Source: Mariniphaga sediminis (GTDB taxonomy: Bacteria; Bacteroidota; Bacteroidia; Bacteroidales; Prolixibacteraceae). Taken from it: 64,000 nt of DNA. The translations under genes were made by a program, and so were the position numbers. The notes under the pieces were generated by a model that was not told the DNA's origin, made no database searches, and was given only the letters and a program-made list of their open reading frames with translations. Below are positions 28,842 through 52,683 of the stretch, piece by piece. Position 1 is the first letter of the stretch. Every line of letters starts with the position of its first letter. The stretch spans positions 62,001-126,000 of the forward strand of contig NZ_QWET01000015.1 of NCBI RefSeq assembly GCF_003573545.1. Direction: 5' to 3'.

Positions 28842-28872
28842 TTTGTAGTTAATAAAAAAAAATATAAACTTG
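28842..28872 (+). promoter_or_regulatory. Bacteroidota-type promoter of the ROK repressor gene
   Basis: TTTG at 28842-28845 and TAAACTTG at 28865-28872 match the -33 (TTTG) and -7 (TAnnTTTG, one mismatch) boxes with a 19-bp spacer, the usual spacing. Transcription would start about 30 bp before the ATG at 28907. Confidence 0.6.
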
Positions 28873-28906
28873 TACCCATCAAATAATAATTGTTACAAAA
28901 GCCTGC

Positions 28907-30118
28907 ATGGATCTATTAGTGAAAAATATCGACGATGTAAGTAATCAAAGTAGACATGACTCTCAAAAGAGAAAGATTATTTCAATACTGAATAAAGCGG
29001 AGCAGGCTTTAACGATTCCTGAATTGTGTAAAAAAGTAAGGTTAAGTATTCCAACAGGTACAAGACTTATTAATGAGCTTATTGAAGACAAGATAATTAT
29101 TGAGTCAGGAAAAAAAGAAACCGAAAATGGAAGACGCCCTTCGTTGTACAAAGTAGATAAAGATTATGCCTTTTCCATTGGTGTAATCGTTTTATTGAAA
29201 GGCCTTTCTTTTTCTGTTTACAATCTGGCCATGGAGGAAATATACTCTGTTGAACAGGAAGATTTTATTCTCGAAAATACTCAGGAATGCCTGGAAGGGG
29301 TTACCGCGTTTATTGATGAATCCATCCGGCAGTCAGGAATTAAAAGAAACAAAATTCTAGGAATTGGAATTGGCATTACCGGAAGAATCAATTCAAAAAC
29401 AGGCAATTCCTACAACTACTTTAATTTTTTGGAAAATTCTCTGGTCGAATACTTTGAAGAGAGCTTTCAGTTTTCAGCTTATATTGAAAATGATACGCAC
29501 TTGATCGGATTGGCCGAACAGGTTTTTGGGAAAGCCAAAAATGAAAAAAACGCTTTTGTCGTTAATTTAAGTCAGGGCCTGGGTATGACTATGATTACGA
29601 ACGGCGAAATTGTTTCGGGAGATGATGGTTTTGCCGGTGAATTTGGTCATATGCAAATTGTTGAATCGAACAAGTTGTGTTTGTGCGGGAAAAGAGGGTG
29701 CCTTGGTACCGAAGCATCAGGATATGCGCTGGAAGAAAGTTTTAAGGAACAAATGGAAGCCGGAGAAACTTCATTGCTGGCAATGAATGGAAATAATGAA
29801 AAGATTAGTTATAAAGAAATCCTTCATGCTGCCGGGAAAGGAGATGCCTTGTCCATTTCGCTTACATATAATATAGGGTTCAAACTTGGGAATGCATTGG
29901 GGAATATGATAAACCTGTTAAACCCGCATGTGATAATTATTGGCGGAAAGTTTGCGCCGGCAAAAGATATTTTGTCCGGGTCAATCAAGTCGGGGATGGT
30001 ACATACTGCTCTTTCATTGCCTCTTCAGTCTTGTAAACTTACCTTTAGCTCAATCGGGACAAGTGCAGCTATTAAGGGCGCTGGTGCTCTGGTATTAAGA
30101 AGAAAAAATCTTATTTAA
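28907..30118 (+). CDS. ROK family transcriptional repressor (NagC/XylR/Mlc type)
   Basis: This is a 403-residue sugar-responsive repressor. An N-terminal winged helix (about 15-70, ALTIPELCKKVRLSIPTGTR) precedes a ROK domain (about 85-400). ROK signatures present are AYIENDTHLIGLAEQVF, GFAGEFGHMQIVES, and the zinc-binding cysteines in CLCGKRGCLGTEASG. The winged helix marks it as a regulator rather than a sugar kinase. It sits at the head of the large plus-strand locus 30387-52683 and is the obvious candidate for its control. An N-acetylated amino sugar or related monosaccharide is a plausible inducer, given the AGE epimerase in the locus, but this is inference. Confidence 0.92.
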   Translation: MDLLVKNIDDVSNQSRHDSQKRKIISILNKAEQALTIPELCKKVRLSIPTGTRLINELIEDKIIIESGKKETENGRRPSLYKVDKDYAFSIGVIVLLKGLSFSVYNLAMEEIYSVEQEDFILENTQECLEGVTAFIDESIRQSGIKRNKILGIGIGITGRINSKTGNSYNYFNFLENSLVEYFEESFQFSAYIENDTHLIGLAEQVFGKAKNEKNAFVVNLSQGLGMTMITNGEIVSGDDGFAGEFGHMQIVESNKLCLCGKRGCLGTEASGYALEESFKEQMEAGETSLLAMNGNNEKISYKEILHAAGKGDALSISLTYNIGFKLGNALGNMINLLNPHVIIIGGKFAPAKDILSGSIKSGMVHTALSLPLQSCKLTFSSIGTSAAIKGAGALVLRRKNLI

Positions 30119-30181
30119 TAAATAACAATAATAATCTAAATCAAAAGGAATGAAAAAAAGTAGCGAAGAAGACTAAGAAGA

Positions 30182-30217
30182 GCCTGCCACATGGCTCCGT
30201 CAAGCTCATGGGCAGGC
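30182..30217 (+). terminator. hairpin after the ROK gene
   Basis: GCCTGCC (30182-30188) and GGCAGGC (30211-30217) form a 7-bp stem 64 bp downstream of the ROK stop codon. There is no T-run, so it is at best a weak terminator. Confidence 0.3.
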
Positions 30218-30386: not shown

Positions 30387-31517
30387 ATGATGACAAATCT
30401 GCAGAAAGCATCTCTCTTTTTTCTAAGTTTCCTCATGATAAGTATAATGGCTTGTTCTCGTGAATTAAGCCACGACGATAATGAGGAGGAGATAATTTTT
30501 AAAGAAGAATCTTCTACGGGTGAACCGGAGCATTATCAGGCGGTGCCGAATGACCTTGTGCTTATTTATGATGGTGGCGCTCACCGTAGGATTCAATGGG
30601 GTAAAGAACATTTTGCTCCTTATGTATCTGCGGAGGTTAACGGAGAAGAAAAGTGGTTGTTCGATGGATTTCTCTTTCTGGAAATCCACGATGGACGAGG
30701 CCGCGGCTTTGCCTCCGGATACCAGGCCATGGCTGCACGTAAAACCGAATGGGAAAATCTGCTGGAAAACTATTTTGCCAAAGGAAACGGCATCCATGCC
30801 TTGAACGAACAGATAGAAGAGATGCGTAAAACCGGACGGGTAACCGGAGAATTTGAGAAAAGAAAAGTTGTGTTGTGTATTCCCGAACCCATTCCTAATC
30901 AAACGGATTGGGGGCAACTGGATGGCCGGTCTCTCCAGTTTTTTAGAAAGGAAGACCGGATTGATGCCTGCAAATGGTACATTGATTTCGCCGAACAGCT
31001 TTTTCAGGATGCGAACTTTGAACATGTTGAACTGGTTGGATTTTACTGGTTGGCCGAAGAAGCCACAAACAGTAGAAACCTGGCGAAAGATGTAGCTGAC
31101 TATGTGTATGGGAAAAAATACGATTTCTACTGGATTCCCTATTTTAATTCCGATGGCTATTCGGAATGGAGAAACCTGGGGTTTAATGTACCCTATTATC
31201 AGCCCAATTATTTCTTTAGTGAGAGTATTCCTTATTCCCGCTTGCAGGAAGCCTGCGACAGGGCCCGTAAGTTTCAGATGAATATGGAAATTGAGTTTGA
31301 CGACAGGGCGTTGAAAAATAATGGATGGGGATACCGGTTAACGGATTATCTGGATGTTTATGAAAAAAACGGGGTTTTTGATTCACTAAAAGTAGCCTAT
31401 TACCAGGGGGGAGATGCTTTTTACAAGTTGTCTCAATCCGAAGAGGAGGCTGACCGGGCATTGTATCGCCGCATCATTCATTTGATAACGCAAAGAGCAG
31501 AAGAAGGCGTTGATTAA
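30387..31517 (+). CDS. DUF4855 domain lipoprotein
   Basis: This is a 376-residue lipoprotein with lipobox SIMAC (Cys about 23). It starts the mature domain with LVLIYDGGAHRRIQWGKEHF and contains FDGFLFLEIHDGRGRGFASG, VELVGFYWLAEEAT, YDFYWIPYFNSDGYSEW and QMNMEIEFDDRAL, which fit the DUF4855 family, predicted TIM-barrel proteins of unknown function found in PULs. The acidic residues in FYWLAEEA and MEIEFDD are candidate catalytic carboxylates. It is the first gene after the ROK regulator and lies 303 bp before SusC. A glycoside hydrolase-like activity is likely, but untested as far as I know. Confidence 0.8.
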   Translation: MMTNLQKASLFFLSFLMISIMACSRELSHDDNEEEIIFKEESSTGEPEHYQAVPNDLVLIYDGGAHRRIQWGKEHFAPYVSAEVNGEEKWLFDGFLFLEIHDGRGRGFASGYQAMAARKTEWENLLENYFAKGNGIHALNEQIEEMRKTGRVTGEFEKRKVVLCIPEPIPNQTDWGQLDGRSLQFFRKEDRIDACKWYIDFAEQLFQDANFEHVELVGFYWLAEEATNSRNLAKDVADYVYGKKYDFYWIPYFNSDGYSEWRNLGFNVPYYQPNYFFSESIPYSRLQEACDRARKFQMNMEIEFDDRALKNNGWGYRLTDYLDVYEKNGVFDSLKVAYYQGGDAFYKLSQSEEEADRALYRRIIHLITQRAEEGVD

Positions 31518-31820: not shown

Positions 31821-34800
31821 ATGGAATGTGACAAACGATCTTTTATTTGGAAGAACAGATTTTTACAAAGTCTGTTTCTGGCACTATTCTTTTTTTTAAC
31901 CAGCGTTGCGTATGCACAGGTTAATGTAAAAGGGAAAGTGGTTGATGCAACAGGAGAAACACTGATTGGTGTGAATGTCCTGGTGAAAGATACGAACCAG
32001 GGTACCGTTACCGACGGGAGCGGGGAATTCACTCTTTCTGTACCATCTGCCAATAGTACACTGGTTTTCTCCTATGTGGGGTTTTTGGTTCAGGAGATTC
32101 CTCTGGATGGCAGGACCTACTTGAATGTTACAATGGAGCAAGACACGGAAGAGCTGGGTGAGGTCATCGTAGTAGGTTATGGTACCCAAAAGAAGGTAAG
32201 TGTTACAGGATCTGTAGCACAGATTGAAAGCAAAGATCTGTTGCAGGCTCCTTCGGGAGATATCACCTCTTTACTGGCCGGGAAATTACCGGGTCTTTCT
32301 ACCCTGCAAACTTCCGGACAACCAGGGTCTGACGGAGCCTCAATACGGGTGCGGGGAGTTTCTACATTAGGAAAAAGTTCAGCTACCCTGATTGTGGATG
32401 GAGTGCAGCGAAGTTTTGCCCAGTTGGATCCCAACGACATTGACAGGATATCCATTTTGAAGGATGCTTCTGCTGCGGCAGTTTACGGTGTTCAGGGGGC
32501 TGGTGGTGTCATTCTGGTTACAACCAAAAGAGGAACTGTACAGGCGCCAAAAATTACCTACACCGGAAAGGTTTCGTATAACCAGAATACTTTTTTTCCT
32601 GAATTCCTCGACGGGCCAGACTTCATCAAGTGGTATAACAAAGCCCTTGAGATGGACGGGAAAGATCCGGTTTTTACACAGAGCCTGTACGAGAAAGCCC
32701 TGAATGGTGATCCGGAAGGAAAAATACAAAATACCAACTGGTTTGATGAGATTATGAAGCCGGGCTCTTTCTCAACCCATCATAACATAAACGTGAACGG
32801 GGGGAATGAGTCGGTAAAATATTTCTTGTCGGCAGGTTATCTTTCGCAAGATGGTATTATTGACAACTTCGATTTCAAACGGTATAATGTGCGGTCGAAT
32901 GTGGATATAAACCTGAATCACGGATTTCGGTTGGAGCTGGATTTAGCAGCCCGGCAGGAAGATCGCAAATCGGGATATTTCAGTGTGTCTAACCAGTCTT
33001 GGAACAATCCGGTAACACTGGCATCCAAAGTATTCCCGTTTTTGCCGACTACCTACGAAGGATTGCCTACGGTAGGTCATTTTAATAAAAACAACACGTT
33101 TAACCCTGTGGTTTATAATAATGTGGGCTACAATAACTCCGTGTTGAATGTTTTGCAGTCTTCTGCAAAATTTGCCTGGGAACTTCCCTGGGTGAAAGGG
33201 CTGGAGTTTGGTATTAAAATGAGCTACGATAAAGATTATACCACGCGCCGCGCATGGGCTGCACCGGTAAAGGTAAACAGCTACGATATTGTTTCTAATA
33301 CCTACACCGAAGTATTAACGAATTTGTCTGTGACAGCGAATAACGTTGAATCTTTTACGCATGCAAACAGTCAGTTTTACCGGAGGACGTTACAGCCATC
33401 AATCAATTATGCGAATACATTTGGTAAACATGATATTTCCGGATTATTCCTGTTTGAGGAGGCGTTGCAGGAAGGTGAAAACCTGGGGGCTGTGGCCATT
33501 GATTATGATGTTACTACCCTGCATGAACTGGATATGGGGAATGATATTAAAGACAATAACGGAAAACCTAATGTCTGGGGAAACAGCAGTATATTCAAGC
33601 GCGCCGGGTTTGTAGGGAGGATCAATTACGGTTTCGACAATAAATACCTGGTTGAACTGGCAGCCCGTTACGACGGTTCTTCCCGTTTCGCCCCCGATAA
33701 CCGTTGGGGTTTCTTCCCCGCTGCATCTGCCGGATGGAGAATTTCGGAGGAACCCTTTTTCAGTGGGTTAAAGGATGTCATCGAGAACCTGAAACTTCGC
33801 GCTTCGGCCGGTGTACTGGGTAACGACCTGAATGTGGGGCAGTTTGCTTATCTGAATATGATGAGAAGAAACCCTCCAACTATTTATATTGGCGATAAAG
33901 AGTATATCTCAGTATATACTGCCGGAGAGGTAAACAGGGATATCACCTGGGAAAAAACGGCCACTTACAACCTCGGTTTCGAAATGATGTTTAACAGAGG
34001 GATATTCGGAATAGAGTTTGACTACTTTTACAAACACACCCGCGATATCCTGATTAGTGGTGCCAGCCTGTTTCCCTGGTCTCTGGGAGGAAACTACCCG
34101 GGAACCGTGAATGGAGGCGAAGTGGCAAACCGGGGTCTGGAACTGGTATTGAGCCATAATAATAAAGTGGGTCAGGTGCATTATAATATTAAAGGTAATT
34201 TGGGGTGGTCCAGGAATAAAGTCCTGAAAATGAATGAGAGCCCGAATACACCGGCGTATCAAAAACGTACCGGAAGAAAACTGGGTGAAAAAATGGGATT
34301 TATTGCGGAAGGCCTTTACGAAAGCGAAGCCCAGATCATGAATACGCCTACGTTAAGCCACCTTCAGAAGATTAGCCAGATCAGGCCAGGGGATATTATC
34401 TACAAAGATTTGAACGGAGATGGTAAAGTGGAGAGTTCTCAGGATTATACTTTCCTCGGAAACAGTAGCTTCCCTGAATTGATGTACGGCCTCAATATGG
34501 GCGCTTCATGGAAGAATTTTGACGCATCCGTCTTTTTCCAGGGTGCTGCAATCCGCGACATCTTTTTAAGTGGGGTTTACGGCAATGGTCATGTAGATGC
34601 TACTATCTATACCCGTCCTTTCCATGGGAACGGTAATTCACCCAGGTTCCTGATAGAAGACAGCTGGACTCCTGAAAACATGGATTCTGAGTTTGCCCGT
34701 CTTACTACTGTTGCCGCAGAGGTGGGTAATGCTAACGGGTGGGCTTCCTCCTGGTGGATGCGTGATGCCAGTTATCTTCGGTTAAAAAATGCCCAGATAG

Positions 34801-34991
34801 GATATACTTTGAATAGCAGCTACCTAAAAGGAGTTGGTTTGGAGGCTGTCCGGTTGAGTTTCACCGGGGCAAATCTTATCACATGGTCCGGTCTGAATAA
34901 GTATGGTATCGACCCGGAAGCTCCGGAGATAAGCAACGGGTATTATCCTCAGCAACGTACATACGAGTTCGGTCTAAGTGTAACATTTTAA
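31821..34991 (+). CDS. SusC/RagA TonB-linked outer-membrane transporter (no STN domain)
   Basis: This 1056-residue TonB-dependent transporter has a signal peptide ending near SVAYAQVNV and a carboxypeptidase-D-like domain (about 35-115, VKGKVVDATGETLIGVNVLV). The plug has EVIVVGYGTQKK and the SusC signature DRISILKDASAAAVYG, and the barrel extends to a C-terminal Phe (EFGLSVTF). Unlike the SusC at 9549 it lacks an STN domain, so it does not signal through an anti-sigma factor. This agrees with a ROK regulator instead of a FecI/FecR pair next to it. Its SusD partner starts 12 bp downstream. Length and features are normal for the family. Confidence 0.96.
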   Translation: MECDKRSFIWKNRFLQSLFLALFFFLTSVAYAQVNVKGKVVDATGETLIGVNVLVKDTNQGTVTDGSGEFTLSVPSANSTLVFSYVGFLVQEIPLDGRTYLNVTMEQDTEELGEVIVVGYGTQKKVSVTGSVAQIESKDLLQAPSGDITSLLAGKLPGLSTLQTSGQPGSDGASIRVRGVSTLGKSSATLIVDGVQRSFAQLDPNDIDRISILKDASAAAVYGVQGAGGVILVTTKRGTVQAPKITYTGKVSYNQNTFFPEFLDGPDFIKWYNKALEMDGKDPVFTQSLYEKALNGDPEGKIQNTNWFDEIMKPGSFSTHHNINVNGGNESVKYFLSAGYLSQDGIIDNFDFKRYNVRSNVDINLNHGFRLELDLAARQEDRKSGYFSVSNQSWNNPVTLASKVFPFLPTTYEGLPTVGHFNKNNTFNPVVYNNVGYNNSVLNVLQSSAKFAWELPWVKGLEFGIKMSYDKDYTTRRAWAAPVKVNSYDIVSNTYTEVLTNLSVTANNVESFTHANSQFYRRTLQPSINYANTFGKHDISGLFLFEEALQEGENLGAVAIDYDVTTLHELDMGNDIKDNNGKPNVWGNSSIFKRAGFVGRINYGFDNKYLVELAARYDGSSRFAPDNRWGFFPAASAGWRISEEPFFSGLKDVIENLKLRASAGVLGNDLNVGQFAYLNMMRRNPPTIYIGDKEYISVYTAGEVNRDITWEKTATYNLGFEMMFNRGIFGIEFDYFYKHTRDILISGASLFPWSLGGNYPGTVNGGEVANRGLELVLSHNNKVGQVHYNIKGNLGWSRNKVLKMNESPNTPAYQKRTGRKLGEKMGFIAEGLYESEAQIMNTPTLSHLQKISQIRPGDIIYKDLNGDGKVESSQDYTFLGNSSFPELMYGLNMGASWKNFDASVFFQGAAIRDIFLSGVYGNGHVDATIYTRPFHGNGNSPRFLIEDSWTPENMDSEFARLTTVAAEVGNANGWASSWWMRDASYLRLKNAQIGYTLNSSYLKGVGLEAVRLSFTGANLITWSGLNKYGIDPEAPEISNGYYPQQRTYEFGLSVTF

Positions 34992-35003
34992 AAAGGAACA
35001 ACA

Positions 35004-36626
35004 ATGAAAATAAGTAAGATGAAATATCAGTTACTTGTTCTGTCCGCATTTCTTCTGTTGGGTGCTTGTAGCGAGGAATACCTTAACCCGGAACCTCGCA
35101 CAGTGTACACAGAAGCAGAGATATGGAAGACAAAGGAGAATACATATTTGTATATCAACGGGTTTTATAAACCAATTTATGAGTATGGCCCTTACGGCAA
35201 AAAATATGCAGGTGTGGCATTAAACGATGGTTTTAGCGACATCGTTAAGTACAACCAGCATGTGATGGGACCTAATGGCGGCGACGTGAACAAAACAATC
35301 CTGAGTCCGATCATTAGCCCGACAACCAATGTGTTGTCCGATTATCAATATGAATACAACCGGATTCGCCGGATCAATGAGTTTCTGTATGGTCTGGAGA
35401 ATTATGTTACCTATTCAAAAGAAGACAAGCTGCTCATGGAAGCCCAGGCCCGGTTCTTTAGAGGGTTCCTGCATTTTATGCTGGTTAGAAGCCATGGCGG
35501 AGTAATTATCCGGGACTATATCGATGGCCCGAATGAAGCGTATAAAGCAAGAAGTACCGAGAGTGAATGTTATGATTTTATCACAAAAGAGCTGGATTTT
35601 GCCGCTGAAAACCTTCCCGCAAAATGGGACGCTGCCAGTTTAGGACGTCTGACCAGAGGGGGAGTATATGGCTACAAATCGAGAGTTATGCTCTATGCTG
35701 AAAGATGGCAGGATGCTATTGACGCAGCAGAAGAGGTGATAAAAGAAGAGGGTAATTTATACGGGCTGGAGTCGGACTATGATAAAATTTTCAAAACATT
35801 AGACAGCAAGGAAGGGGTTCTTTCGTATCGTTTTGGGGGTACTTTAGGACATTCGTTCCATCATTTGTATTGCCCCAAAGGCGATAAGAGCGAAGGTATT
35901 ATTGGTATTGCCGGGCCTACACTTGAAATGGTTGACTCTTACCGGATGGCCGATGGGAGTGAATTCGACTGGAATAACCCGGAGCATGCTGCCAATCCTT
36001 ATGCAAACAGGGAACCGCGCTTTTATGCTTCTGTGCTCTATAATGGTGCAACCTGGAAAGGACGTACCATTGAAACGTTTGTGGGAGGACAAGACGGTTT
36101 TGAACCCTACGCTGCACAGCAAAGTTCCGGAGGTACCACCACAGGATACTATATCCGTAAAATGATTGATGAGAAAGCTTCTATGGATGAGGTGAGCTCA
36201 CAAACCTGGTATGAAGTAAGGTATGCCGAAGTGCTTCTGAATCATGCTGAAGCGCTCAATGAACTGGGAAGAGGCGAGGAAGCCCTGGTTTCGCTCAATA
36301 AAGTCCGTATAAGGGCCAAGTTGCCGAAAATCACTGTCTCAGACAAAGAAGCATTGCGCGAGATTATCCGCGAAGAACGTAAAGTTGAACTCGCTTTTGA
36401 GGGACAACGCTACTGGGATTTACGTCGTTGGAAACTGGCAACAGAAGTTCTCAACGGAGTGAGGATGCATGGTACCAAAATCACGAAGGATGGAGACACA
36501 TTCATTTATGAAACGGTAGAATGTGATGATAAGGATCGCGTGTTTAAAGAGAGCTATTATAAGTTCCCTGTTCCGCAAAATGAGATAGATAATAATCCTT
36601 TATGCAAGCAAACACCGCTTTGGTAA
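35004..36626 (+). CDS. SusD/RagB family surface glycan-binding lipoprotein
   Basis: This is a 540-residue lipoprotein with lipobox LLGAC (Cys about 22), directly followed by SEEYLNPEPRTVYTEAEIW. SusD features are RIRRINEFLYGLENY, LLMEAQARFFRGFLHFML (TPR helices), WYEVRYAEVLLNHAEALNEL, and REIIREERKVELAFEGQRYW followed by DLRRWK. It is the lid for the SusC 12 bp upstream and binds the oligosaccharide taken up by this locus. It is followed 13 bp later by a second lipoprotein, so the three surface genes form one transcript. Confidence 0.96.
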   Translation: MKISKMKYQLLVLSAFLLLGACSEEYLNPEPRTVYTEAEIWKTKENTYLYINGFYKPIYEYGPYGKKYAGVALNDGFSDIVKYNQHVMGPNGGDVNKTILSPIISPTTNVLSDYQYEYNRIRRINEFLYGLENYVTYSKEDKLLMEAQARFFRGFLHFMLVRSHGGVIIRDYIDGPNEAYKARSTESECYDFITKELDFAAENLPAKWDAASLGRLTRGGVYGYKSRVMLYAERWQDAIDAAEEVIKEEGNLYGLESDYDKIFKTLDSKEGVLSYRFGGTLGHSFHHLYCPKGDKSEGIIGIAGPTLEMVDSYRMADGSEFDWNNPEHAANPYANREPRFYASVLYNGATWKGRTIETFVGGQDGFEPYAAQQSSGGTTTGYYIRKMIDEKASMDEVSSQTWYEVRYAEVLLNHAEALNELGRGEEALVSLNKVRIRAKLPKITVSDKEALREIIREERKVELAFEGQRYWDLRRWKLATEVLNGVRMHGTKITKDGDTFIYETVECDDKDRVFKESYYKFPVPQNEIDNNPLCKQTPLW

Positions 36627-38150: not shown

Positions 38151-38212
38151 AAGTTGATATTTTTTTGGTGTATATTATGACATTATTTAGATCCGATTTT
38201 TTTCTTGCTGCT

Positions 38213-43457: not shown

Positions 43458-45293
43458 ATGAAGTTCGATTGGATAGATTTATCGATCATTGCCCTTTATA
43501 TTGTACTTAGCATTTTTATTGGCTTCTGGATTTCAAAAAAAGCCGGGAAAAGCTTACAAAACTATTTTTTGGGCGGAAACCAATTGAAATGGTATTACCT
43601 GGGGTTATCCAATGGTTCCGGAATGTTTGATGTGTCCGGCGCTGCCTGGACGGTTACTATCTTTTTTGTTTATGGGTTAAAAAGTGTTTGGATTCCCTGG
43701 CTCTGGCCTGTGTGGAATCAGATTTTTGTCATGATTTTTATGGCTGTCTGGCTGCGGCGTTCGAATGTAATGACGGGCGCAGAGTGGATTACCACCCGGT
43801 TTGGGAATGACCGCGGCGGGAAGTTTTCCCACATTATTGTAGTCGTTTTTGCGGTGATTAGCGCCATTGGCTTTATTGCTTACTTTTTTGTGGGGATCGG
43901 GAAATTTGCCGTGATGATTTTTCCCTGGGATCTATCTTTTTCGCTGGGCAGGGTACATATTATTTCTGAATATGCCTATGCGACTATTCTTCTTACCATT
44001 ACCACATTGTATGTTATAAAAGGCGGTATGTATAGTGTGGTGGCCACAGAGGTGATGCAGTTTTTTGTGATGACCATTGCCTGTATTGCAGTAGCCTGGT
44101 TTGCCATGAAACATGTGTCGGCAGAGCAAATAGAAGCTTCGGTTCCCAATGGCTGGTTTGATATTGTTCCGCGTTGGGATGGAGGCCTCGATTGGACTGA
44201 CATCTTTGCTCAGGCAAACGATAAAATTGCTGAAGACGGATATGGCATGTTGGGGGCCATGGTAATGATGATGTTATTCAAAGGAATTTTTTCCAGTCTG
44301 GCCGGACCCGTGCCAAGTTACGATATGCAACGCATATTGTCAACAAAAACACCGCGCGATGCCGCCAAGATGAGCGGACTTACTTCCCTGGTCCTCTATC
44401 CGCCAAGGTACCTGATGATTGCCGGACTGGGTATTTTGGCACTGGTGTCGGTCGGGCCTATGCTGGAGGCGAGTAACGGCACTTTCGATTTCGAAAAAAT
44501 ACTTCCGTTTGTGATAAATAATTTATTGCCTGTGGGGCTGAAGGGAATTATTCTGGCCGGGTTGTTGGCCGCTTTTATGTCCACTTTTTCGGCATTTGTT
44601 AATTCGGCGCCGGCCTATATTGTTAACGATTTATACAAAAAGTATATCAATCCCAATGCTTCCGGAAAACGGTATATTCGTATCAGCTACTTTTCCTCCA
44701 TCGGTATGGTAGTGGTCGGAATCATTTTTGGTTTTTTCTCTGCATCCATTAATTCACTTACCCTTTGGATTACCTCGTCGTTATACGGTGGATATGTCGC
44801 TGCAAATGTGTTAAAATGGGTGTGGTGGCGTTTTAACGGGTATGGATATTTTTGGGGAATGCTGGCCGGACTGGCAGGCTCAACCATTAAGTTTCTGTTT
44901 TTTCCCGCAACGCCTGACATATACCTGTTCCCAATCATCCTTATTATGGCATCGGCCGGCAGTTTTTTGGGATGTCTTTTTACCAAACCTGTTGATGATG
45001 ATACACTGATTGAATTTTATAAAAATGTGCGTCCCTGGGGGTGGTGGAAACCGGTTTACCTCAAAGCAAAGAAAAAATACCCCGGCATAACCAAAAACAA
45101 GGATTTGCCACGGGATGCATTCAATATCGTTATTGGGATTATTTGGCAAACCGTTTTAATAACGGCCCCTGTGTACTTTGTACTTCGGAAGCCTCAGGGG
45201 GTGCTCATTTCACTGGCTGTGTTTATTTTGACATCCATCATATTAAAATTTAACTGGTTAGATAAAATAAAGGATTATGAAACGAGCGTGTAA
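43458..45293 (+). CDS. sodium:solute symporter (SSS family)
   Basis: This 611-residue inner-membrane transporter has about 13-14 hydrophobic segments. Family hallmarks are WISKKAGKSLQNYFLGGNQL (start), LSNGSGMFDVSGAAWTV, TGAEWITTRFG, SLAGPVPSYDMQRILSTKTP and LAGLLAAFMSTFSAFVNSAP. It starts 11 bp after the isomerase-like gene, so the two are co-transcribed. It should import a monosaccharide or sugar acid produced in the periplasm by the upstream enzymes. The exact ligand cannot be read from the sequence. Confidence 0.93.
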   Translation: MKFDWIDLSIIALYIVLSIFIGFWISKKAGKSLQNYFLGGNQLKWYYLGLSNGSGMFDVSGAAWTVTIFFVYGLKSVWIPWLWPVWNQIFVMIFMAVWLRRSNVMTGAEWITTRFGNDRGGKFSHIIVVVFAVISAIGFIAYFFVGIGKFAVMIFPWDLSFSLGRVHIISEYAYATILLTITTLYVIKGGMYSVVATEVMQFFVMTIACIAVAWFAMKHVSAEQIEASVPNGWFDIVPRWDGGLDWTDIFAQANDKIAEDGYGMLGAMVMMMLFKGIFSSLAGPVPSYDMQRILSTKTPRDAAKMSGLTSLVLYPPRYLMIAGLGILALVSVGPMLEASNGTFDFEKILPFVINNLLPVGLKGIILAGLLAAFMSTFSAFVNSAPAYIVNDLYKKYINPNASGKRYIRISYFSSIGMVVVGIIFGFFSASINSLTLWITSSLYGGYVAANVLKWVWWRFNGYGYFWGMLAGLAGSTIKFLFFPATPDIYLFPIILIMASAGSFLGCLFTKPVDDDTLIEFYKNVRPWGWWKPVYLKAKKKYPGITKNKDLPRDAFNIVIGIIWQTVLITAPVYFVLRKPQGVLISLAVFILTSIILKFNWLDKIKDYETSV

Positions 45294-45398: not shown

Positions 45399-46334
45399 AT
45401 GAAGATAAAGGGTACTTTTTTAGATGAGATAAGCCATGATATCCCGCATCAGAATTGGGGAAGAGAAGAGTGGAGGAGAGATTTCAGTTATATGAAAAAG
45501 GCAGGTATCGATACAGTTATTCTTATCCGTGCCGGCTATCGGAAATGGCAAACATTCCCTTCTGAAGTTTTGATGCAACAGGAAGGAGCACATCGTCCGC
45601 CGGTAGATCTGGTTCAGATGTTTCTGGAGCTGGCTGAGGAAAACGGAATGGATTTTTACTTCGGATTGTATGATTCGGGTAAATACTGGACTGACGGAAG
45701 ATTTGGGCAGGAGATCGATATTAATAAAAGATTTATCGATGAGGTTTGGAAAAGATATGAGAAAATGCCAGCTTTTAAAGGATGGTATATTCCTCATGAA
45801 ATCAGCCGGGATACAGGCCGGATTATAGATCTTTATGCGGAACTGGCCAGGCATGGAAAAGATATTTCAAATGGATTATCAGTACTCATTTCTCCCTATA
45901 TCGATGGAATCAAAAATGTAACCCAATACAAGACCAATACCACAAAAAGCTGTGGGGTTACCTTGAAACAACATGAGACTGAATGGTGCGAAATTTTTGA
46001 CGGAATAAAAGGGGCCGTTGATATAGTGGCGTTTCAGGACGGACATGTGGATTACCAGGATTTGACAAGCTTCCTTCAAATCAATAAATCCCTGGCCGAC
46101 AAATTTGGCCTTGAATGCTGGACAAATTCGGAGACTTTCGACCGAGACATGCCCATCAAATTTATGCCCATCAAATGGGAAAAGCTTTTATTGAAACTTG
46201 AAATGGCAGCCAAAGCCGGAATTGAACAGGCCATTACCTTTGAGTTTTCGCATTTTATGAGCCCTCAATCGGCCTATTTACAGGCGGGGCATTTATACAA
46301 CCGGTACATGGACTATTTGCAGAACCTGAAATAA
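45399..46334 (+). CDS. cytoplasmic DUF4434 family protein
   Basis: This 311-residue protein has no signal peptide: it begins at once with KIKGTFLDEISHDIPHQNWG, the start of the DUF4434 barrel. Other motifs are AGIDTVILIRAGYRKWQTFP, MDFYFGLYDSGKYW, FKGWYIPHEISRD and VDIVAFQDGHVD. It parallels the Tat-exported DUF4434 at 39590 (GWYYPNETG, AYQDEIG), with Glu kept in WYIPHE and Asp in FQDGH. Having one exported and one cytoplasmic member suggests that the substrate or a similar intermediate is processed on both sides of the inner membrane. The activity is unknown; a glycosidase-like reaction is likely from the fold. Confidence 0.8.
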   Translation: MKIKGTFLDEISHDIPHQNWGREEWRRDFSYMKKAGIDTVILIRAGYRKWQTFPSEVLMQQEGAHRPPVDLVQMFLELAEENGMDFYFGLYDSGKYWTDGRFGQEIDINKRFIDEVWKRYEKMPAFKGWYIPHEISRDTGRIIDLYAELARHGKDISNGLSVLISPYIDGIKNVTQYKTNTTKSCGVTLKQHETEWCEIFDGIKGAVDIVAFQDGHVDYQDLTSFLQINKSLADKFGLECWTNSETFDRDMPIKFMPIKWEKLLLKLEMAAKAGIEQAITFEFSHFMSPQSAYLQAGHLYNRYMDYLQNLK

Positions 46335-46357: not shown

Positions 46358-48070
46358 ATGAAACGAAGAAATTTTATAACTCTTGTATCTGCCGGAAGCG
46401 GAGGGTTACTGTTAACCGCACCGGTAAAGAGTTCCGCTTTAGCAAATGCAAATAAAAAGAATAAAGTTAGTCCCGGCGGGCTATCTGCCGATGTTATTAT
46501 AGCAGGCGGAGGAATGGGGGGATGTGCAACTGCCCTGGCTGCATGCCGCAATGGCCTGAGCGTTATAATGACGGAAGAAACCGACTGGATTGGAGGGCAA
46601 CTATCGCAGCAAGGTGTTCCGCCGGATGAGCATTCCTGGATTGAAACACATGGTGCACCTTCTTCATATCGGGATTTCAGAAACCGGGTGCGGGCCTACT
46701 ATAAACGCAATTATCCTTTGACAGAGGGAGCCCGCAACCGCGAAAATCTCAATCCCGGCGATGGTTCTGTCTCCCGGCTATGTCACGAACCCAAAGTGGC
46801 AGTGGCTGTGTTGCTGGAAATGTTGCATCCTTACATGAGTTCCGGTAAATTGGTACTGCTGACGGAACATAAAATATATAGAGCAGATGTTACCGGCGAC
46901 ATGGTAAAATTTGTGGAGGCAACAAACCTGAAAAATAATCAGAAAGTGGTGCTGGAAGCTCCTTACTTTGTCGATGCGACGGAGTGTGGCGATCTTCTTC
47001 CGCTTACCAATACGGAATATGTTACCGGTACCGAATCAAAAAAGCAGACCGGCGAACTGCATGCCCCGGAAAAAGGAAACCCCAAAAATAACCAGGCATT
47101 CACCTTGTGTTTTGCCATGGATTATCAGCCCGGGGTAAACAATATTATCGACCGCCCGGAGGATTACAGCTTCTGGAGTAATTACGTCCCAGAAATGACA
47201 CCGCCCTGGGCAGGGAAACTGTTGGATTTGAACTATTCAAATCCCAGGACTTTGGAGCCCAAAGAACTTGGGTTTCACCCGGAAGGAGTACGGACAGGGA
47301 GTGTGTTGAACCTTTGGAATTACCGGCGGATAATCAATAAAAATAATTTTGCCCCCGGAATATATGACGGCGATATAACCATTGTAAACTGGCCGCAGAA
47401 TGACTATTTTTTAGGGGACATCATTGATGTAAGCGAAAAAGAGTTTAAGAAACACATCGAAGCTTCCCGTCAGTTAAGTTTATCCCTGTTTTACTGGTTG
47501 CAGACCGAAGCGCCGCGGCCTGACGGAGGTCTTGGCTGGCCGGGGTTACGCCTGCGGGGCGATGTAATGGGAACCAATGACGGAATGGCCAAGTATCCTT
47601 ACATCAGGGAATCCCGAAGGATTAAGGCAGAGTTTACCATTCTGGAAGAACATGTGGGAGCGGAAAACCGGAAACTGGTGGCCGGAGAAGAGGCCGGGAA
47701 AAAAGCTGCCGGTTTTTATGACAGTGTGGGAACAGGGTATTATCATATCGACCTTCATCCCAGCAGCCAGGGCGACAATTACATCGACTTTGGCTCTCTG
47801 CCGTTTCAAATTCCGTTAGGCGCTTTGCTGCCACAACGTATGAATAACCTGCTGCCGGCCAATAAAAATATTGGCACCACGCATATTACCAACGGATGTT
47901 ACCGGCTGCACCCGGTCGAATGGAGCATTGGCGAAGCTGTTGGTTCATTGATTGCCTTTGCCCGGAAGAAAAAAACGCTCCCCAGGGCCGTGCGGGAAAA
48001 CAGAAACTTGCTGGAAGAATTTCAGGGGTGGATTCGTAGCCAGGGATTAGAAACTCACTGGCCCGGATAA
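46358..48070 (+). CDS. Tat-exported FAD-dependent oxidoreductase (PF12831)
   Basis: This 570-residue flavoprotein has a Tat signal KRRNFITLVSAGSGGLLL. The dinucleotide-binding motif is ADVIIAGGGMGGCATALAAC (about 45-64), followed by TEETDWIGGQLSQQGVPPDE, the usual PF12831 start. Other matches are FVDATECGDLLPLT, RESRRIKAEFTILEEHVG and the C-terminal NIGTTHITNGCYRLHPVEWS. The protein would be exported folded with FAD. It sits between DUF4434 and an MFS sugar porter; a second PF12831 gene lies at 50776. These enzymes are frequent in PULs of environmental Bacteroidota, but their substrates are largely unknown; oxidation of a sugar is the simplest proposal. Confidence 0.9.
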   Translation: MKRRNFITLVSAGSGGLLLTAPVKSSALANANKKNKVSPGGLSADVIIAGGGMGGCATALAACRNGLSVIMTEETDWIGGQLSQQGVPPDEHSWIETHGAPSSYRDFRNRVRAYYKRNYPLTEGARNRENLNPGDGSVSRLCHEPKVAVAVLLEMLHPYMSSGKLVLLTEHKIYRADVTGDMVKFVEATNLKNNQKVVLEAPYFVDATECGDLLPLTNTEYVTGTESKKQTGELHAPEKGNPKNNQAFTLCFAMDYQPGVNNIIDRPEDYSFWSNYVPEMTPPWAGKLLDLNYSNPRTLEPKELGFHPEGVRTGSVLNLWNYRRIINKNNFAPGIYDGDITIVNWPQNDYFLGDIIDVSEKEFKKHIEASRQLSLSLFYWLQTEAPRPDGGLGWPGLRLRGDVMGTNDGMAKYPYIRESRRIKAEFTILEEHVGAENRKLVAGEEAGKKAAGFYDSVGTGYYHIDLHPSSQGDNYIDFGSLPFQIPLGALLPQRMNNLLPANKNIGTTHITNGCYRLHPVEWSIGEAVGSLIAFARKKKTLPRAVRENRNLLEEFQGWIRSQGLETHWPG

Positions 48071-48132: not shown

Positions 48133-49563
48133 ATGAACATTGACAACAAATTTGTCCATATGAGGTATGTCGCCTTTATCTCATTTGTTGCGGCATTGGG
48201 CGGATTATTATTTGGGTATGACACGGCGGTTATCTCGGGTACGGTGTCTCAGGTTACGGAACAATTCGGCTTAAGTACCATGCAAAGTGGCTGGTATGTG
48301 GGGTGTGCTTTAATTGGATCAATCGTTGGGGTTGTGCTCGCCGGAAGGCTGAGCGATCACCTGGGCCGGAAAAGCACCATGATTCTCTCTGCTCTTCTTT
48401 TTACTTCCTCAGCTGTGGGGTGCGCCCTTTCAAACAGTTTTAACCAGTTGGTTCTTTGGCGCATTGTGGGAGGCGCAGGAATCGGAATTGTTTCGGTAGT
48501 GTGCCCGCTGTACATTTCCGAAGTATCGCCGGCTTCGCACCGGGGGCGGTTGGTTTCGTTATACCAGCTTGCCATAACGGTAGGCTTTTTAGGGGCATAC
48601 CTGGTCAACTATTTGTTGCTCAATCTTTCTGCCGGTTTTTCATCGTCGAGCGCAATCTTGCAAAAAGTTTTTGGACTGGAACCGTGGCGCGGGATGCTGG
48701 GAGCTGAAACATTGCCTGCCGCGCTGTTTTTTATGGTAACTTTTTTAATTCCTGAAAGTCCGCGCTGGTTGCTGGTAAAAGGAAGGGAGAACCAGGCCTC
48801 TTTAATTTTTGCGAAAATTTTTGTGAAAAAAGAAGACATCGCACGCCTGGTGCTGGAAACAAAAAAGATGCTGCAACTACAATCAGAAGCTAAATCAGAC
48901 TGGAAAGTGCTCATGCAACCGGGATTCCGTAAAGCGGTAATTATCGGTTCTGCCATAGCCATATTGGGCCAGTTTATGGGGGTGAATGCCGTGCTTTACT
49001 ACGGGCCTTCCATTTTTGAAAGCAGCGGCCTGTCCAGTGGAGATTCCCTGTTTTATCAATCGCTTATTGGTACGGTAAACATGGTGACAACCGTGCTGGC
49101 GTTGCTTGTTATCGATAAAGTGGGGCGTAAAAAACTGGTTTACTTTGGAGTTTCAGGAATGGTTCTTTCGCTGGTTTTTATTGGCTTCTACTTTTTGTTT
49201 TCCGGTATGTTGGGGCTGTCTGGTGTTTTCCTGCTGGTTTGTTTCCTTGCGTATATCTTTTTCACTGCGGGCTCCATCAGTGCTGTAATTTTTGTTTTTC
49301 TTTCAGAAATGTATCCTACGCGTATCCGGGGATTTGCCATGTCAATCGCGACCCTTTCTTTGTGGATTGGAACGTATCTAATCGGTCAGCTTACCCCGTG
49401 GATGCTGGAAAATCTGACACCGGCAGGTACCTTTTTCCTTTTTGCAGCAATGTGTTTCCCCTACATGTTCATCGTTTGGCGGTTAATGCCGGAAACAACC
49501 GGAAAATCGCTTGAAGAGATTGAACTGTTTTGGCTCAGGGATGAAAATAAAAAGCATAAATAA
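48133..49563 (+). CDS. MFS sugar porter (sugar:H+ symporter family)
   Basis: This 476-residue inner-membrane transporter has 12 predicted membrane helices. Sugar-porter signatures are LFGYDTAVISGTV (helix 1), GRLSDHLGRKSTMI (loop 2-3), VCPLYISEVSPASHRGRLVS, PESPRWLLVKGR (PESPR motif), DKVGRKKLV and PETTGKSLEEIE near the C-terminus. It resembles the XylE/GLUT group. Together with the SSS symporter at 43458 the locus encodes two different monomer importers, which suggests that at least two products reach the cytoplasm. It starts 62 bp after the FAD gene and 11 bp before the AGE gene. Confidence 0.94.
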   Translation: MNIDNKFVHMRYVAFISFVAALGGLLFGYDTAVISGTVSQVTEQFGLSTMQSGWYVGCALIGSIVGVVLAGRLSDHLGRKSTMILSALLFTSSAVGCALSNSFNQLVLWRIVGGAGIGIVSVVCPLYISEVSPASHRGRLVSLYQLAITVGFLGAYLVNYLLLNLSAGFSSSSAILQKVFGLEPWRGMLGAETLPAALFFMVTFLIPESPRWLLVKGRENQASLIFAKIFVKKEDIARLVLETKKMLQLQSEAKSDWKVLMQPGFRKAVIIGSAIAILGQFMGVNAVLYYGPSIFESSGLSSGDSLFYQSLIGTVNMVTTVLALLVIDKVGRKKLVYFGVSGMVLSLVFIGFYFLFSGMLGLSGVFLLVCFLAYIFFTAGSISAVIFVFLSEMYPTRIRGFAMSIATLSLWIGTYLIGQLTPWMLENLTPAGTFFLFAAMCFPYMFIVWRLMPETTGKSLEEIELFWLRDENKKHK

Positions 49564-49574
49564 GAATATATATT

Positions 49575-50744
49575 ATGGATTTCAAGGCATTAGAACAAAA
49601 ATATAAAAGCGAGTTGTTTGATCGTGTGCTCCCTTTTTGGCTGGATAAATCGCAAGACAAAGAGTTTGGGGGGTATTTTACCTGCCTCGACCGCGAAGGG
49701 AATGTATTTGATACCGATAAATTTATCTGGCTTCAGGCACGGGAAGTCTGGCTTTTTTCAATGTTGTATAATAAGGTGGAAAAAAATCCGGAGTGGCTCC
49801 GTTGTGCCGTTCAGGGCGGGGAATTTCTTAAAAAGTTTGGTCACGATGGCAATCACAACTGGTTTTTTAGTCTGACCCGTGAAGGGAACCCGTTGGTGCA
49901 GCCCTACAACATTTTTTCATACACGTTTGCCGCAATGGCTTTTGCACAACTGGGCCTGGCCACAGGTAATTCCGAGTACAGGGATATTGCCCGCAAAACC
50001 TTCGACCGGATTGTGGAGCGTCAGGATAACCCCAAAGGGAAATACAACAAGGCTTTTCCGGGGACACGGAACCTTAAAAATTTTGCGTTGCCTATGATAA
50101 TGTGCAACCTTGCTCTCGAAATGGAACATATTCTGGGAGAAGAGGAGGTAAAAAAAACAGCCCGGTCGGTTATGAACGAAGTGCTCAACGTGTTTTACCG
50201 TCCCGAGCTTGGGCTGGTTGTTGAAAATGTAAACACAGATAACTCGTTTTCCGATACGTTTGACGGACGTCTGCTCAACCCCGGCCATGCCATCGAGGCC
50301 ATGTGGTTTATCATGGATTTAGGGGTCCGGTTCAATAATAACGAGGTGGTTGAGAAAGCCGAAAAGATAATGCACCAGACATTGGAGCATGGCTGGGATA
50401 AAAAATACGGAGGCATCTTTTACTTTATGGACGCCGGCGGACATCCGACCCAGCAACTTGAGTGGGACCAGAAACTGTGGTGGGTACATATTGAAACCCT
50501 CATTTCCTTGCTGAAAAGTTATCATCTTACCGGGTCATCAAAATCGCTGGAGTGGTTTGAAAAAGTACATGATTACACCTGGTCGCACTTTGCTGATGAG
50601 CAGTACCCCGAATGGTTTGGTTACCTCGACAGGCAGGGCAAAGTATTGCTGAACCTGAAAGGGGGAAAATGGAAAGGATGCTTTCACGTTCCGCGCGGAT
50701 TGTACCAATGCTGGCAAACCCTCGGGAGATTAGCCGAAAAATAA
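49575..50744 (+). CDS. N-acylglucosamine 2-epimerase (AGE) family protein
   Basis: This 389-residue cytoplasmic enzyme has the (alpha/alpha)6 AGE barrel. The start DRVLPFWLDKSQDKEFGGYF is typical, followed by LQAREVWLFSMLY, LLNPGHAIEAMWFIMDLG, KLWWVHIETLISLL and GGKWKGCFHVPRGLYQ. The conserved Arg, His and Glu of the AGE active site appear to be present in these motifs. Family members interconvert GlcNAc/ManNAc, glucose/mannose or cellobiose at C2. Absence of a signal places the step after import by the SSS or MFS porter. It starts 11 bp after the MFS stop codon, so the two are linked. Together with the ROK regulator it hints at a hexosamine or hexose intermediate. Confidence 0.9.
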   Translation: MDFKALEQKYKSELFDRVLPFWLDKSQDKEFGGYFTCLDREGNVFDTDKFIWLQAREVWLFSMLYNKVEKNPEWLRCAVQGGEFLKKFGHDGNHNWFFSLTREGNPLVQPYNIFSYTFAAMAFAQLGLATGNSEYRDIARKTFDRIVERQDNPKGKYNKAFPGTRNLKNFALPMIMCNLALEMEHILGEEEVKKTARSVMNEVLNVFYRPELGLVVENVNTDNSFSDTFDGRLLNPGHAIEAMWFIMDLGVRFNNNEVVEKAEKIMHQTLEHGWDKKYGGIFYFMDAGGHPTQQLEWDQKLWWVHIETLISLLKSYHLTGSSKSLEWFEKVHDYTWSHFADEQYPEWFGYLDRQGKVLLNLKGGKWKGCFHVPRGLYQCWQTLGRLAEK

Positions 50745-50775
50745 TTCTGAATTTTTAGCCGGATATTTTTTTAGC

Positions 50776-52683
50776 ATGAAATTGTTACATTTTTTGGGGC
50801 TGGTTTTGCTGACCAGCCTTATTTCCTGTACAGGGAAGGAAATGGCCTATGACCTTGAAGCAGATGTTTTAGTCATAGGAGGAGGGGCCAGCGGTACCAT
50901 GGCAGGCATCCAGTCGGCGCGCCTGGGAGCTTCTACTTTAATGGTTGAGGAAACCCCGTGGCTGGGAGGAATGCTTACCTCCGCGGGAGTGAGCGCCATT
51001 GATGGAAACTACAGGCTTTATTCCGGGCTTTGGGAAGAATTCAGGCAAAAGCTGTATAACCATTACGGGAGCGCCGGAGCGGTGAATACAGGCTGGGTCA
51101 GCAATGTGTTATTCGAACCTTCGGTTGGGGCAAACATTCTTTGGGAAATGGCTTCAGCCGAACAAAAGCTGGAAGTAAAATTTGACAGCAAACTTCACAG
51201 TCTGAAAAAAACTGAAGATGGCTGGGTCGCAGTTTTTACTGCCGGGGAGGCCCGTTTTTCTGTTAAAGCAACCGTAATTATTGATGGGACCGAACTGGGT
51301 GACGTGGCTAAAATGGCCGGGATTCCCTACGATGTGGGTATGGATTCACGCCACGAAACCGGCGAAGCCATTGCACCGGAAAAAGCAAACAACATTGTTC
51401 AGGATCTTACGTACGTGGCAATCCTTAAAGATTACGGCAAAGGAGCCGATAAAACCATCCCCCGTCCTGAAAATTATGATCCTGCCCCATTTCGGTGCAC
51501 CTGTGCCAGCGACTCCTGCAAAGAGGATAATTACGAACGTGAACCATGGGGGTGCGACTACATGATGGAATATGGGCATCTTCCCAATAACAAATTTATG
51601 ATCAACTGGCCTATAAATGGGAATGATTATTATGTGAACGTTGTCGAAATGTCGGAGGCAGGGCGGCAGGCAGCTTACAAAAAGGCCAAATGGCACACCC
51701 GCTGTTATATCTATTACCTGCAAACAGAATTGGGATTTAATAACCTGGGCATTGCCGAAGGTGAATTTCCTACCGCCGACGGGTTCCCGTTATTTCCTTA
51801 TCACCGGGAGTCAAGACGTATTAAAGGGAAGGTGCGTTTTACCGTAAATGATATGGCCCGGCCGTTTGATCAGCAGAGGGCCCTTTACCGGACAGGAATT
51901 GCCGTTGGCGATTATGCGGTTGATCATCACCACGCAGCGTATCCGGACCCCTCGGAAGTGCCCGATTTGCATTTTTACCCGGTGCCATCGTATACCCTTC
52001 CGCTTGGAGCTCTTATTCCCGCCAACCAGGAAAATTTGATTGTAGCCGAAAAATCCGTTTCTGTTACCAATATAGTAAACGGCACCACCCGTTTGCAGCC
52101 TGTCTGTATGCTTATCGGACAGGCCGCAGGAGTATTGGGAGCCCTGGCGACTCAGACCGGGGTAGCTCCGGCCGATGTGCCCATACGCAGGGTGCAGGAG
52201 GCTTTGCTGGATGCGGGCGCTTATATTCAGCCTTATTCTGACATTACTCCTGAAGATTCTTACTGGAAAGCAGTTCAGCGTATTGGTGCAACCGGCATTA
52301 TTAAAGGAGAAGGTAAAAATCAGGGATGGGCCAACCTTACCCTTTTTCATCCCGATTCGGTAATGACTTCAAAAGCCCTGTCGGAAGGGCTGAAAGAGTT
52401 GGTTCCGGATGTTGAATTCCATTTCGAAGGCGCTTTTGTAACGGGGAAGGAAGCCGGCGAAATAGCTATGAAAACGGGAATTATTCTGGGAACCTGTAAA
52501 AAAGCAGACGAAGATTTGCTTCTGCAAAAAATTGAAAATAGTTGGGCGGAATATGGTTTTGGAACATTTCTGCCCAATGAACCGGTTTCACGGTGTCAGA
52601 TGGCGGTAATTCTGCATGAAATTGCCAACCCGTTCAACGTCGAAATCGATTGGGAGGGCAACTTTAAAAAAAATTGCCGCTGA
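50776..52683 (+). CDS. FAD-dependent oxidoreductase lipoprotein (PF12831) with SLH-like C-terminal domain
   Basis: This is a 635-residue flavoprotein with a lipoprotein signal (LLTSLISC, Cys about 19). The FAD motif is ADVLVIGGGASGTMAGIQSA (about 29-48), followed by VEETPWLGGMLTSAGVSAID. FRCTCASDSCKEDNYERE is a Cys-rich insert (about 238-255). After the oxidoreductase core (to about 480) the tail reads TPEDSYWKAVQRIGATGIIK and FLPNEPVSRCQMAVILHEIA, resembling S-layer-homology-type repeats. The lipid anchor differs from the soluble Tat paralogue at 46358. Its stop codon lies only 14 bp from the stop of the minus-strand PL8-like gene. The substrate is unknown. Confidence 0.88.
   Translation: MKLLHFLGLVLLTSLISCTGKEMAYDLEADVLVIGGGASGTMAGIQSARLGASTLMVEETPWLGGMLTSAGVSAIDGNYRLYSGLWEEFRQKLYNHYGSAGAVNTGWVSNVLFEPSVGANILWEMASAEQKLEVKFDSKLHSLKKTEDGWVAVFTAGEARFSVKATVIIDGTELGDVAKMAGIPYDVGMDSRHETGEAIAPEKANNIVQDLTYVAILKDYGKGADKTIPRPENYDPAPFRCTCASDSCKEDNYEREPWGCDYMMEYGHLPNNKFMINWPINGNDYYVNVVEMSEAGRQAAYKKAKWHTRCYIYYLQTELGFNNLGIAEGEFPTADGFPLFPYHRESRRIKGKVRFTVNDMARPFDQQRALYRTGIAVGDYAVDHHHAAYPDPSEVPDLHFYPVPSYTLPLGALIPANQENLIVAEKSVSVTNIVNGTTRLQPVCMLIGQAAGVLGALATQTGVAPADVPIRRVQEALLDAGAYIQPYSDITPEDSYWKAVQRIGATGIIKGEGKNQGWANLTLFHPDSVMTSKALSEGLKELVPDVEFHFEGAFVTGKEAGEIAMKTGIILGTCKKADEDLLLQKIENSWAEYGFGTFLPNEPVSRCQMAVILHEIANPFNVEIDWEGNFKKNCR

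Follow-up and report, generated by a model that had tools for sequence, protein, structure and literature searches.

The window analysed here, a stretch of 64,000 nucleotides from Mariniphaga sediminis (contig NZ_QWET01000015.1, positions 62,001 to 126,000 of the forward strand), contains 15 open reading frames (ORFs), all on the + strand at 28907-52683, which by the ORF listing and Pfam make up one SusC/SusD locus. The interpretation favoured here, which is tentative and held at a little less than even confidence, is that this is a polysaccharide utilization locus (PUL) for an N-acetylhexosamine glycan, in which glycosidases of an as yet uncharacterised class, predicted to resemble clan GH-A of the glycoside hydrolases (GH), would work alongside an accessory 3-keto-elimination step. 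What is novel is the DUF4434 family, represented by two proteins termed here DUF4434a and DUF4434b, with its epimerase partner, an N-acyl-D-glucosamine 2-epimerase (AGE). Gene identities are Pfam matches above the gathering score, supplemented with NCBIfam models and PDB sequence searches.

The DUF4434 proteins

DUF4434a and DUF4434b are the only matches to their family in the 5.83-Mb genome at E<=0.001, and score 194 and 262.4 bits against a PF14488 gathering score of 30 bits. The two are 25% identical to each other and their profiles match at 100% probability; DUF4434b is in addition 60% identical (E 5e-125) to BT_0435, deposited as PDB 4h41. An AlphaFold model of DUF4434b, built with 30 sequences, had a predicted local distance difference test score (pLDDT) of 91.2, and a fold search with this model returned 4h41 (Z 45.3), Cwp19 (21.8), a GH164 beta-mannosidase (20.3), GH5 mannanases (19-20) and GH42 proteins (about 19), a ranking in which entries no more than 1 Z apart count as ties; fold alone is no proof of function. 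Four residues, E115, E134, D214 and E245, are the same in all 30 aligned rows, DUF4434a included. In the model E134 follows strand 4 (126-131) and E245 stands at the end of strand 7 (239-245); the residues of DUF4434a aligned with them are E179 and E278, with a PNE motif at the first position.

Glutamates after strand 4 and at the end of strand 7 are the layout of clan GH-A, to which we take GH164, GH5 and GH42 to belong. DUF4434b is likewise a (beta/alpha)8 barrel (Z about 18-20) with glutamates at the beta4 and beta7 ends, although it is only 9-16% identical to these glycosidases in the rows listed. For the paired carboxylates that the original prediction had proposed to look for in a model of this protein, the invariant E134 and E245 are candidates by strand position, and both DUF4434 proteins are predicted to be GH-A-like glycosidases. 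An identity as alpha-L-fucosidase was considered for DUF4434b and set aside, as the deposited name of 4h41 is putative and the 15 include no recognised fucose gene. One related locus (L062:246-2286) has a tandem pair of DUF4434b-type genes, of which one encodes a lipoprotein-like signal sequence and the other none. A crystal structure from the family dates from 2012 (4h41), yet no paper naming DUF4434 was found in the open-licence collection searched, which omits most subscription journals; GHL10, DUF4985, DUF5018 and DUF5009 are named there in 12 papers.

Distribution and neighbours of DUF4434b

At least 592 relatives of DUF4434b were returned in one scan, and the best 80, from named genomes, were taken as loci. 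The neighbour counts are of best BLAST matches (E<=1e-8), with proteins of the window or of neighbouring genes as references, at any place in a fetched stretch and on either strand, some of them at less than 35% identity, and clusters of neighbouring ORFs were named from one scanned member each. Homologues of AGE were found in 57 of the 80 loci, of the SSF sodium/solute symporter in 49, of the GHL10 protein in 40, of a GDSL esterase in 36 and of flavin adenine dinucleotide (FAD) oxidoreductase b in 34, followed by SusC and SusD (31 each), DUF5009 (29), DUF5018 (20) and ROK (19). At least six genomes are common to this set and another set of fetched loci, so that the counts are not independent. 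Of the 73 anchored loci, 49 have AGE as the gene that immediately follows DUF4434b, including records titled Chloroflexi (L103) and KSB1 (L104). Among 140 genomes of the same family, 34 carry DUF4434b at E<=1e-30, and AGE was above its cut-off in 32 of these 34 as compared with 28 of the 106 without DUF4434b (Fisher 8e-13, relatedness ignored; tallied by hand). The association of AGE with DUF4434b is a strong one.

Nine of the best 80 relatives are titled outside the Bacteroidota (Chloroflexi, Spirochaetaceae, KSB1, Armatimonadetes, Ignavibacteria), nearly all of them possibly misassigned metagenome bins. Among the matches listed, the closest named relatives are from Anaerophaga (85%) and Marinilabilia (80%), a list that may omit records very near the window. 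Conservation of the gene set around DUF4434 in other genomes, which the original prediction had put forward as a check, is supported by the comparison of the 80 DUF4434b loci, 13 DUF4434a regions and 140 genomes, and neither lack of co-conservation nor placement in a characterised GH family with a known substrate (Pfam, NCBIfam, PDB) was encountered.

An N-acetylhexosamine glycan is favoured as the substrate because of four lines of evidence: AGE itself, the closest PDB chains of which (6f04 and 2gz6) are both named N-acetylglucosamine (GlcNAc) 2-epimerases; an ORF cluster in 5 of the 80 loci whose scanned member (in L112) is a GH20; a GH2 next to DUF4434a in L050 that carries an Ig domain of exo-beta-glucosaminidase type, and likewise by BLAST cluster in L051; and the relation of DUF5009 to HGSNAT. 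DUF5009 is described as intermixed with HGSNAT, with function confirmed for no DUF5009 protein (PMC12423673).

Gene content of the locus

The 15 genes, all on the + strand, are as follows.

28907..30118, +: ROK-family repressor, winged helix-turn-helix plus ROK (PF00480 167 bits, PF13412)
30387..31517, +: DUF4855 lipoprotein (PF16147 312.7 bits; lipobox-like N terminus)
31821..34991, +: SusC-like TonB-dependent transporter (TIGR04056 941 bits; CarbopepD_reg_2/Plug)
35004..36626, +: SusD-like lipoprotein (PF07980, PF14322)
36640..38031, +: DUF5018 surface lipoprotein, probably glycan-binding (PF16410 82 bits)
38165..39526, +: GHL10 lipoprotein with C-terminal DUF4985, predicted glycan-cleaving TIM barrel (PF02638 61.6 bits, PF16373 105.4 bits)
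39590..40642, +: DUF4434a, exported, twin-arginine-like N terminus, predicted GH-A-like glycosidase (PF14488 194 bits)
40988..42490, +: Gfo/Idh protein, BT_2158-family glycoside 3-dehydrogenase (NF058561 850.2 bits, cut-off 750)
42586..43446, +: AP_endonuc_2 TIM barrel, signal-like N terminus, predicted 3-keto-glycoside beta-eliminase (PF01261)
43458..45293, +: SSF sodium/solute symporter (PF00474 96.4 bits)
45399..46334, +: DUF4434b, GH-A-like barrel, no signal-like N terminus as called (PF14488 262.4 bits)
46358..48070, +: FAD oxidoreductase a, twin-arginine-like N terminus (PF12831 318.8 bits)
48133..49563, +: major facilitator superfamily (MFS) sugar porter, Sugar_tr (TIGR00879 348.6 bits, cut-off 237.8)
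49575..50744, +: AGE (NF052547 705 bits, cut-off 600)
50776..52683, +: FAD oxidoreductase b, lipobox-like N terminus (PF12831 329 bits)

The SusC gene adjoins that of SusD, and GHL10, the glycoside 3-dehydrogenase and AGE belong by family models to the same unit, as expected of a PUL. The composition described in the original prediction, namely one SusC/SusD pair, a surface lipoprotein, a ROK repressor, two importers and no standard CAZy hydrolase, was confirmed by Pfam for 15 genes, with DUF4985 as an addition. GHL10 aside, no GH or polysaccharide lyase (PL) family was above cut-off among the 15 proteins in Pfam or in the NCBIfam and PDB sequence searches; a GH76 match to the AGE protein falls under its cut-off, as do the matches of the NagC/Mlc equivalog models to the ROK protein. 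FAD oxidoreductase b has an additional SLH match (25.9 against 20.8 bits). No PDB sequence relative was found for either FAD protein at the thresholds used, or for DUF5018 at E<=0.001. In the regions preceding ROK, DUF4855 and SusC, a search for repeats turned up matches that were short or AT-rich, none of them convincing as an operator.

Convergent neighbours lie on the - strand at 52698-59396. They encode a PL8 lyase (PF02278), a sulfatase and a protein of 654 aa that carries a twin-arginine-like signal and matched no Pfam family up to E 5. As they are on the opposite strand, the PL8 and sulfatase genes are probably a separate locus.

A probable oxidation-elimination module

Besides its score above the NF058561 cut-off, the Gfo/Idh protein at 40988 matches a twin-arginine signal model (TIGR01409, 19.8 against 16.7) and has PDB relatives 8tdf and 8tdh. 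BT_2158 itself is periplasmic, and its deletion mutant in Bacteroides thetaiotaomicron fails on trehalose, leucrose and palatinose (PMC11300592); in another study, growth on raffinose-family sugars was unimpaired by deletion of BT2157 or BT2158 (PMC11501099). The AP_endonuc_2 barrel at 42586 is related to PDB 3p6l (E 3.2e-97), and its residues H158, H160, D188, H214 and E259 do not vary over 12 aligned rows, two of which come from genomes already represented. The metal-binding and catalytic residues of the characterised 3-keto-O-glycoside eliminase AtOGE, on successive late strands, are the His-x-His pair H132 and H134, then D163, H189 and, weakly, E233 (PMC10628242). Comparison of these published residue numbers, rather than of aligned sequences, gives spacings of 2/29/26/44 for AtOGE and 2/28/26/45 for the window barrel, and this near-identical pattern supports eliminase-type chemistry; no AtOGE entry was among the barrel's three PDB matches at E<=1e-8.

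The original prediction that Gfo/Idh and the isomerase-like barrel form a 3-keto oxidation-elimination pair is supported, and such a module is likely present in the locus, with a chemistry of an already known kind; as 3-keto cleavage has been published, this part cannot be called an undescribed pathway. The locus shares with the published 3-keto-glycoside pathway (BT2156-BT2160 type, AtOGE) the BT_2158-family dehydrogenase and a TIM barrel with the AtOGE residue pattern, whilst differing from the BT2156-BT2160 type in that it has neither a match to DUF1080 (3-keto-disaccharide hydrolase) nor a BT_2159-type dehydrogenase above cut-off. The host genome has 34 DUF1080 matches, some of them two per protein; none is on the contig of the window.

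GHL10 and DUF4855

The GHL10 ORF as listed starts at TTG 38165, but the ATG at 38213, which opens a lipoprotein-like signal, is the likelier true start. Its domain scores 61.6 against 27.9 bits, and the sole PDB match under E 0.001 is Cwp19 (5oq2, E 1.2e-5), a GHL10 protein that is a peptidoglycan lytic transglycosylase (PMC6016235), so GHL10 is not the uncharacterised family that the original prediction took it for. Residue D196 has been proposed as catalytic in Cwp19 (PMC5765458). In the window protein this position holds R234, and the 15 commonest of the motifs listed from 58 aligned rows have R or Y there; D233 and R236 are found in all 58 rows. Homologues in these loci have an LD[RY]xR[FY] motif where Cwp19 has FDDYF. 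They are perhaps a distinct GHL10 subgroup, which may use a mechanism other than that of Cwp19. Cwp19 thus shares the GHL10 domain with the 38165 protein and is a fold neighbour of DUF4434b, but it combines D196 with cell-wall-binding repeats where the window protein has R234 and DUF4985.

The suggestion that DUF4434 and DUF4855 proteins are both new glycosidase or lyase types is supported, as a prediction, for DUF4434 with its GH-A-like fold and invariant glutamates, but finds no support for DUF4855. A single-sequence structure model of DUF4855 had a pLDDT of 38, and no PDB relative was found by sequence at E<=1. Its motifs GFYWLAEE and MEIEFDD look DUF4434-like, but profile comparison gave no support, the hhalign probability, from a shallow profile (Neff 2.1), being <1% to DUF4434a, DUF4434b, a single GHL10 sequence and, as negative control, AGE. 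DUF4855 occurs in 12 of the 34 genomes with DUF4434b as compared with 4 of the 106 without (hand tallies), one of the four being under the family cut-off. In the open-licence collection searched it is named in one paper, as a table entry.

DUF4434a and a possible modular structure of the locus

DUF4434a was found in 18 of the 140 genomes, at 24 places from which 13 regions were picked; three further regions were centred on other genes. DUF4855 was present in 9 of the 13, some Gfo/Idh protein in 7 and a homologue of the AP_endonuc_2 barrel in 4. Three of the seven Gfo/Idh proteins are 70-92% identical to that of the window and four 27-34%, the one of the latter that was scored (L186) being far under the BT_2158 cut-off. 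One region, L182, repeats the window order (DUF4855, SusC, SusD, DUF5018, GHL10, DUF4434a, Gfo/Idh, AP_endonuc_2 barrel, FAD oxidoreductase a, MFS, AGE) at 81-92% identity, which argues that the gene set is more than chance; compared with the window it has an extra 748-aa gene and is without SSF and DUF4434b. Another, L191, runs SusC, a 559-aa ORF where SusD would be expected, DUF1080, Gfo/Idh (831.7 bits, above the BT_2158 cut-off), the AP_endonuc_2 barrel, two DUF4434a homologues (30 and 54% identical), Reg_prop and an alpha-galactosidase, and L192 resembles it by BLAST and ORF lengths. The window locus therefore resembles two modules joined together, GHL10-DUF4434a-DUF4855-3-keto and SSF-DUF4434b-AGE-FAD, although this we infer from the regions compared.

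The extra gene (L182:7919-10165) belongs to a family of about 745 aa, with further ORFs in L186, L188, L189, L190 and L197 near DUF4434a or DUF4855. Members have signal-like N termini and are 66-86% identical among the six loci; those scanned had no Pfam match, and the L182 protein had no NCBIfam or PDB match at the thresholds used. The latter has a weak stretch (E 0.003) like the PL8 gene of the window, and relatives in the host genome at 54% and 45%.

A possible route of glycan breakdown

With cellular locations judged from N-terminal sequences, the following order of events may be proposed. DUF5018 and SusD would bind the glycan at the surface, where the first cuts would be made by the GHL10 lipoprotein and perhaps DUF4855, and the oligosaccharides would be imported via SusC. 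In the periplasm the exported DUF4434a (E179, E278) would cleave glycosides, whilst the exported Gfo/Idh protein would oxidise a sugar at C3 and the metal-site TIM barrel eliminate its aglycone; the two FAD proteins, which have export-like N termini, may be further oxidases. SSF and MFS would carry sugars or disaccharides set free in this way inward, a small imported glycoside would be cleaved by DUF4434b (E134, E245), which appears to be cytoplasmic, AGE would interconvert GlcNAc-type and N-acetylmannosamine (ManNAc)-type sugars for catabolism, and ROK would sense a product.

Alternative explanations

On the original prediction, C3 oxidation and beta-elimination would account for most of the breakdown of the glycan, and the DUF4434 and DUF4855 proteins would serve that chemistry or act as lyases. 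The BT_2158-type dehydrogenase above cut-off, the eliminase residue pattern and the two export-signalled FAD oxidoreductases speak for this, as do the Gfo/Idh and barrel homologues of the DUF4434a regions and the DUF1080 protein of L191, and the DUF1080 matches of the host suggest that 3-keto chemistry is used elsewhere in the genome. However, close Gfo/Idh homologues occur in only 2 of 20 DUF4434b regions and only two distant paralogues in the 80 loci (20-kb stretches can miss genes), whereas AGE, SSF, GHL10 and FAD proteins are far more regular around DUF4434b, so that the oxidation-elimination pair is not the conserved core and a breakdown "mainly" of this kind is not supported. The contig lacks DUF1080, more than half of the Gfo/Idh proteins near DUF4434a are distant, and the glutamate pair of DUF4434b is typical of hydrolases; we consider this explanation unlikely. 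A substrate such as peptidoglycan, or some other glycan of bacterial cell walls or biofilms, with GHL10 acting on GlcNAc strands like Cwp19 or DigH and the other proteins salvaging amino sugars, is more doubtful still. DigH is, we presume, a GHL10 member acting on denuded glycans. Cwp19, the lytic transglycosylase, is the only PDB match of GHL10 under E 0.001 and ranks next to BT_0435 in fold similarity to DUF4434b, and DigH is titled a glycosyl hydrolase (PMC12288456), but the sequence similarity is remote, D196 is not conserved, and no amidase, endopeptidase or SIS/MurQ-type Pfam match was found among the 15 proteins. With the candidate catalytic D196 replaced by R234, a Cwp19 activity for the window protein was dropped.

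A glycosaminoglycan or mucin-type host glycan would give the locus the same purpose as BT0435-BT0454 of B. thetaiotaomicron, a region of orphan PULs. The published table lists BT0438 as an alpha-N-acetylglucosaminidase, BT0439-40 as SusC/D, BT0442 as DUF4855, BT0446 as DUF5009 and BT0447/0449 as "family 10 glycosylhydrolase" (PMC10434189). Common to both loci are BT_0435/DUF4434b, DUF4855, SusC/D, a sugar porter and the family 10 protein, which by its name is probably of GHL10 type; the B. thetaiotaomicron region also lists GH89 and DUF5009, whilst the Gfo/Idh-eliminase pair and the FAD proteins are not in that passage of the table. That 4h41 is BT_0435, that BT_0439 has been seen on milk oligosaccharides and galactooligosaccharides (PMC5238430) and that a PL8 lyase and a sulfatase adjoin the window locus are in keeping with a host glycan. 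The latter two are, however, on the other strand, no GH89 match was found among the 15 proteins, and the 80 listed relatives are, by their titles and usual habitats, mostly from organisms not named as host-associated; we consider a host glycan unlikely.

The N-acetylhexosamine PUL favoured here should itself be considered with caution, as several observations weigh against it. The window locus has no DUF5009, GH20 or GH2, and the GH92-type ORF cluster in 6 loci and the alpha-galactosidase of L191 point to other sugars and to variety. AGE-family enzymes are able to act on other sugars, NF052547 is an annotation model, and AGE was not seen in the DUF4434b regions L035, L044 and L045. DUF4434b is patchy, being found in 34 of 140 genomes of the family and 5 of 198 drawn from the order (E<=1e-60), and is not essential to the gene set, since it is missing from the closest syntenic relative, L182. 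Seven of the 80 loci lost their anchor gene under the longest-ORF rule, leaving the 73, and many contigs are short. The match of the glutamates to GH-A was judged from strand positions and not from superposed side chains, and, with R234 in place of D196, the activity of Cwp19 cannot simply be assumed for this GHL10 protein. Heparosan is not favoured by PMC8225759 either, in which the efficient enzyme is Bt3590 rather than Bt0438, the GH89 of the B. thetaiotaomicron region.

Implications

A bolder proposal, and one we regard as somewhat unlikely, is that DUF4434 represents an undescribed family of GH-A-like glycosidases linked to GlcNAc/ManNAc metabolism in several phyla, which would act here in tandem with C3 oxidation-elimination, with DUF4855 as a further glycan-active fold. 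The partners that recur with DUF4434b, namely epimerase, symporter, GHL10 and esterase, point to concrete substrates that can be tested. If the proposal were true, a single locus would degrade an amino-sugar glycan both by hydrolysis and by oxidation-elimination.

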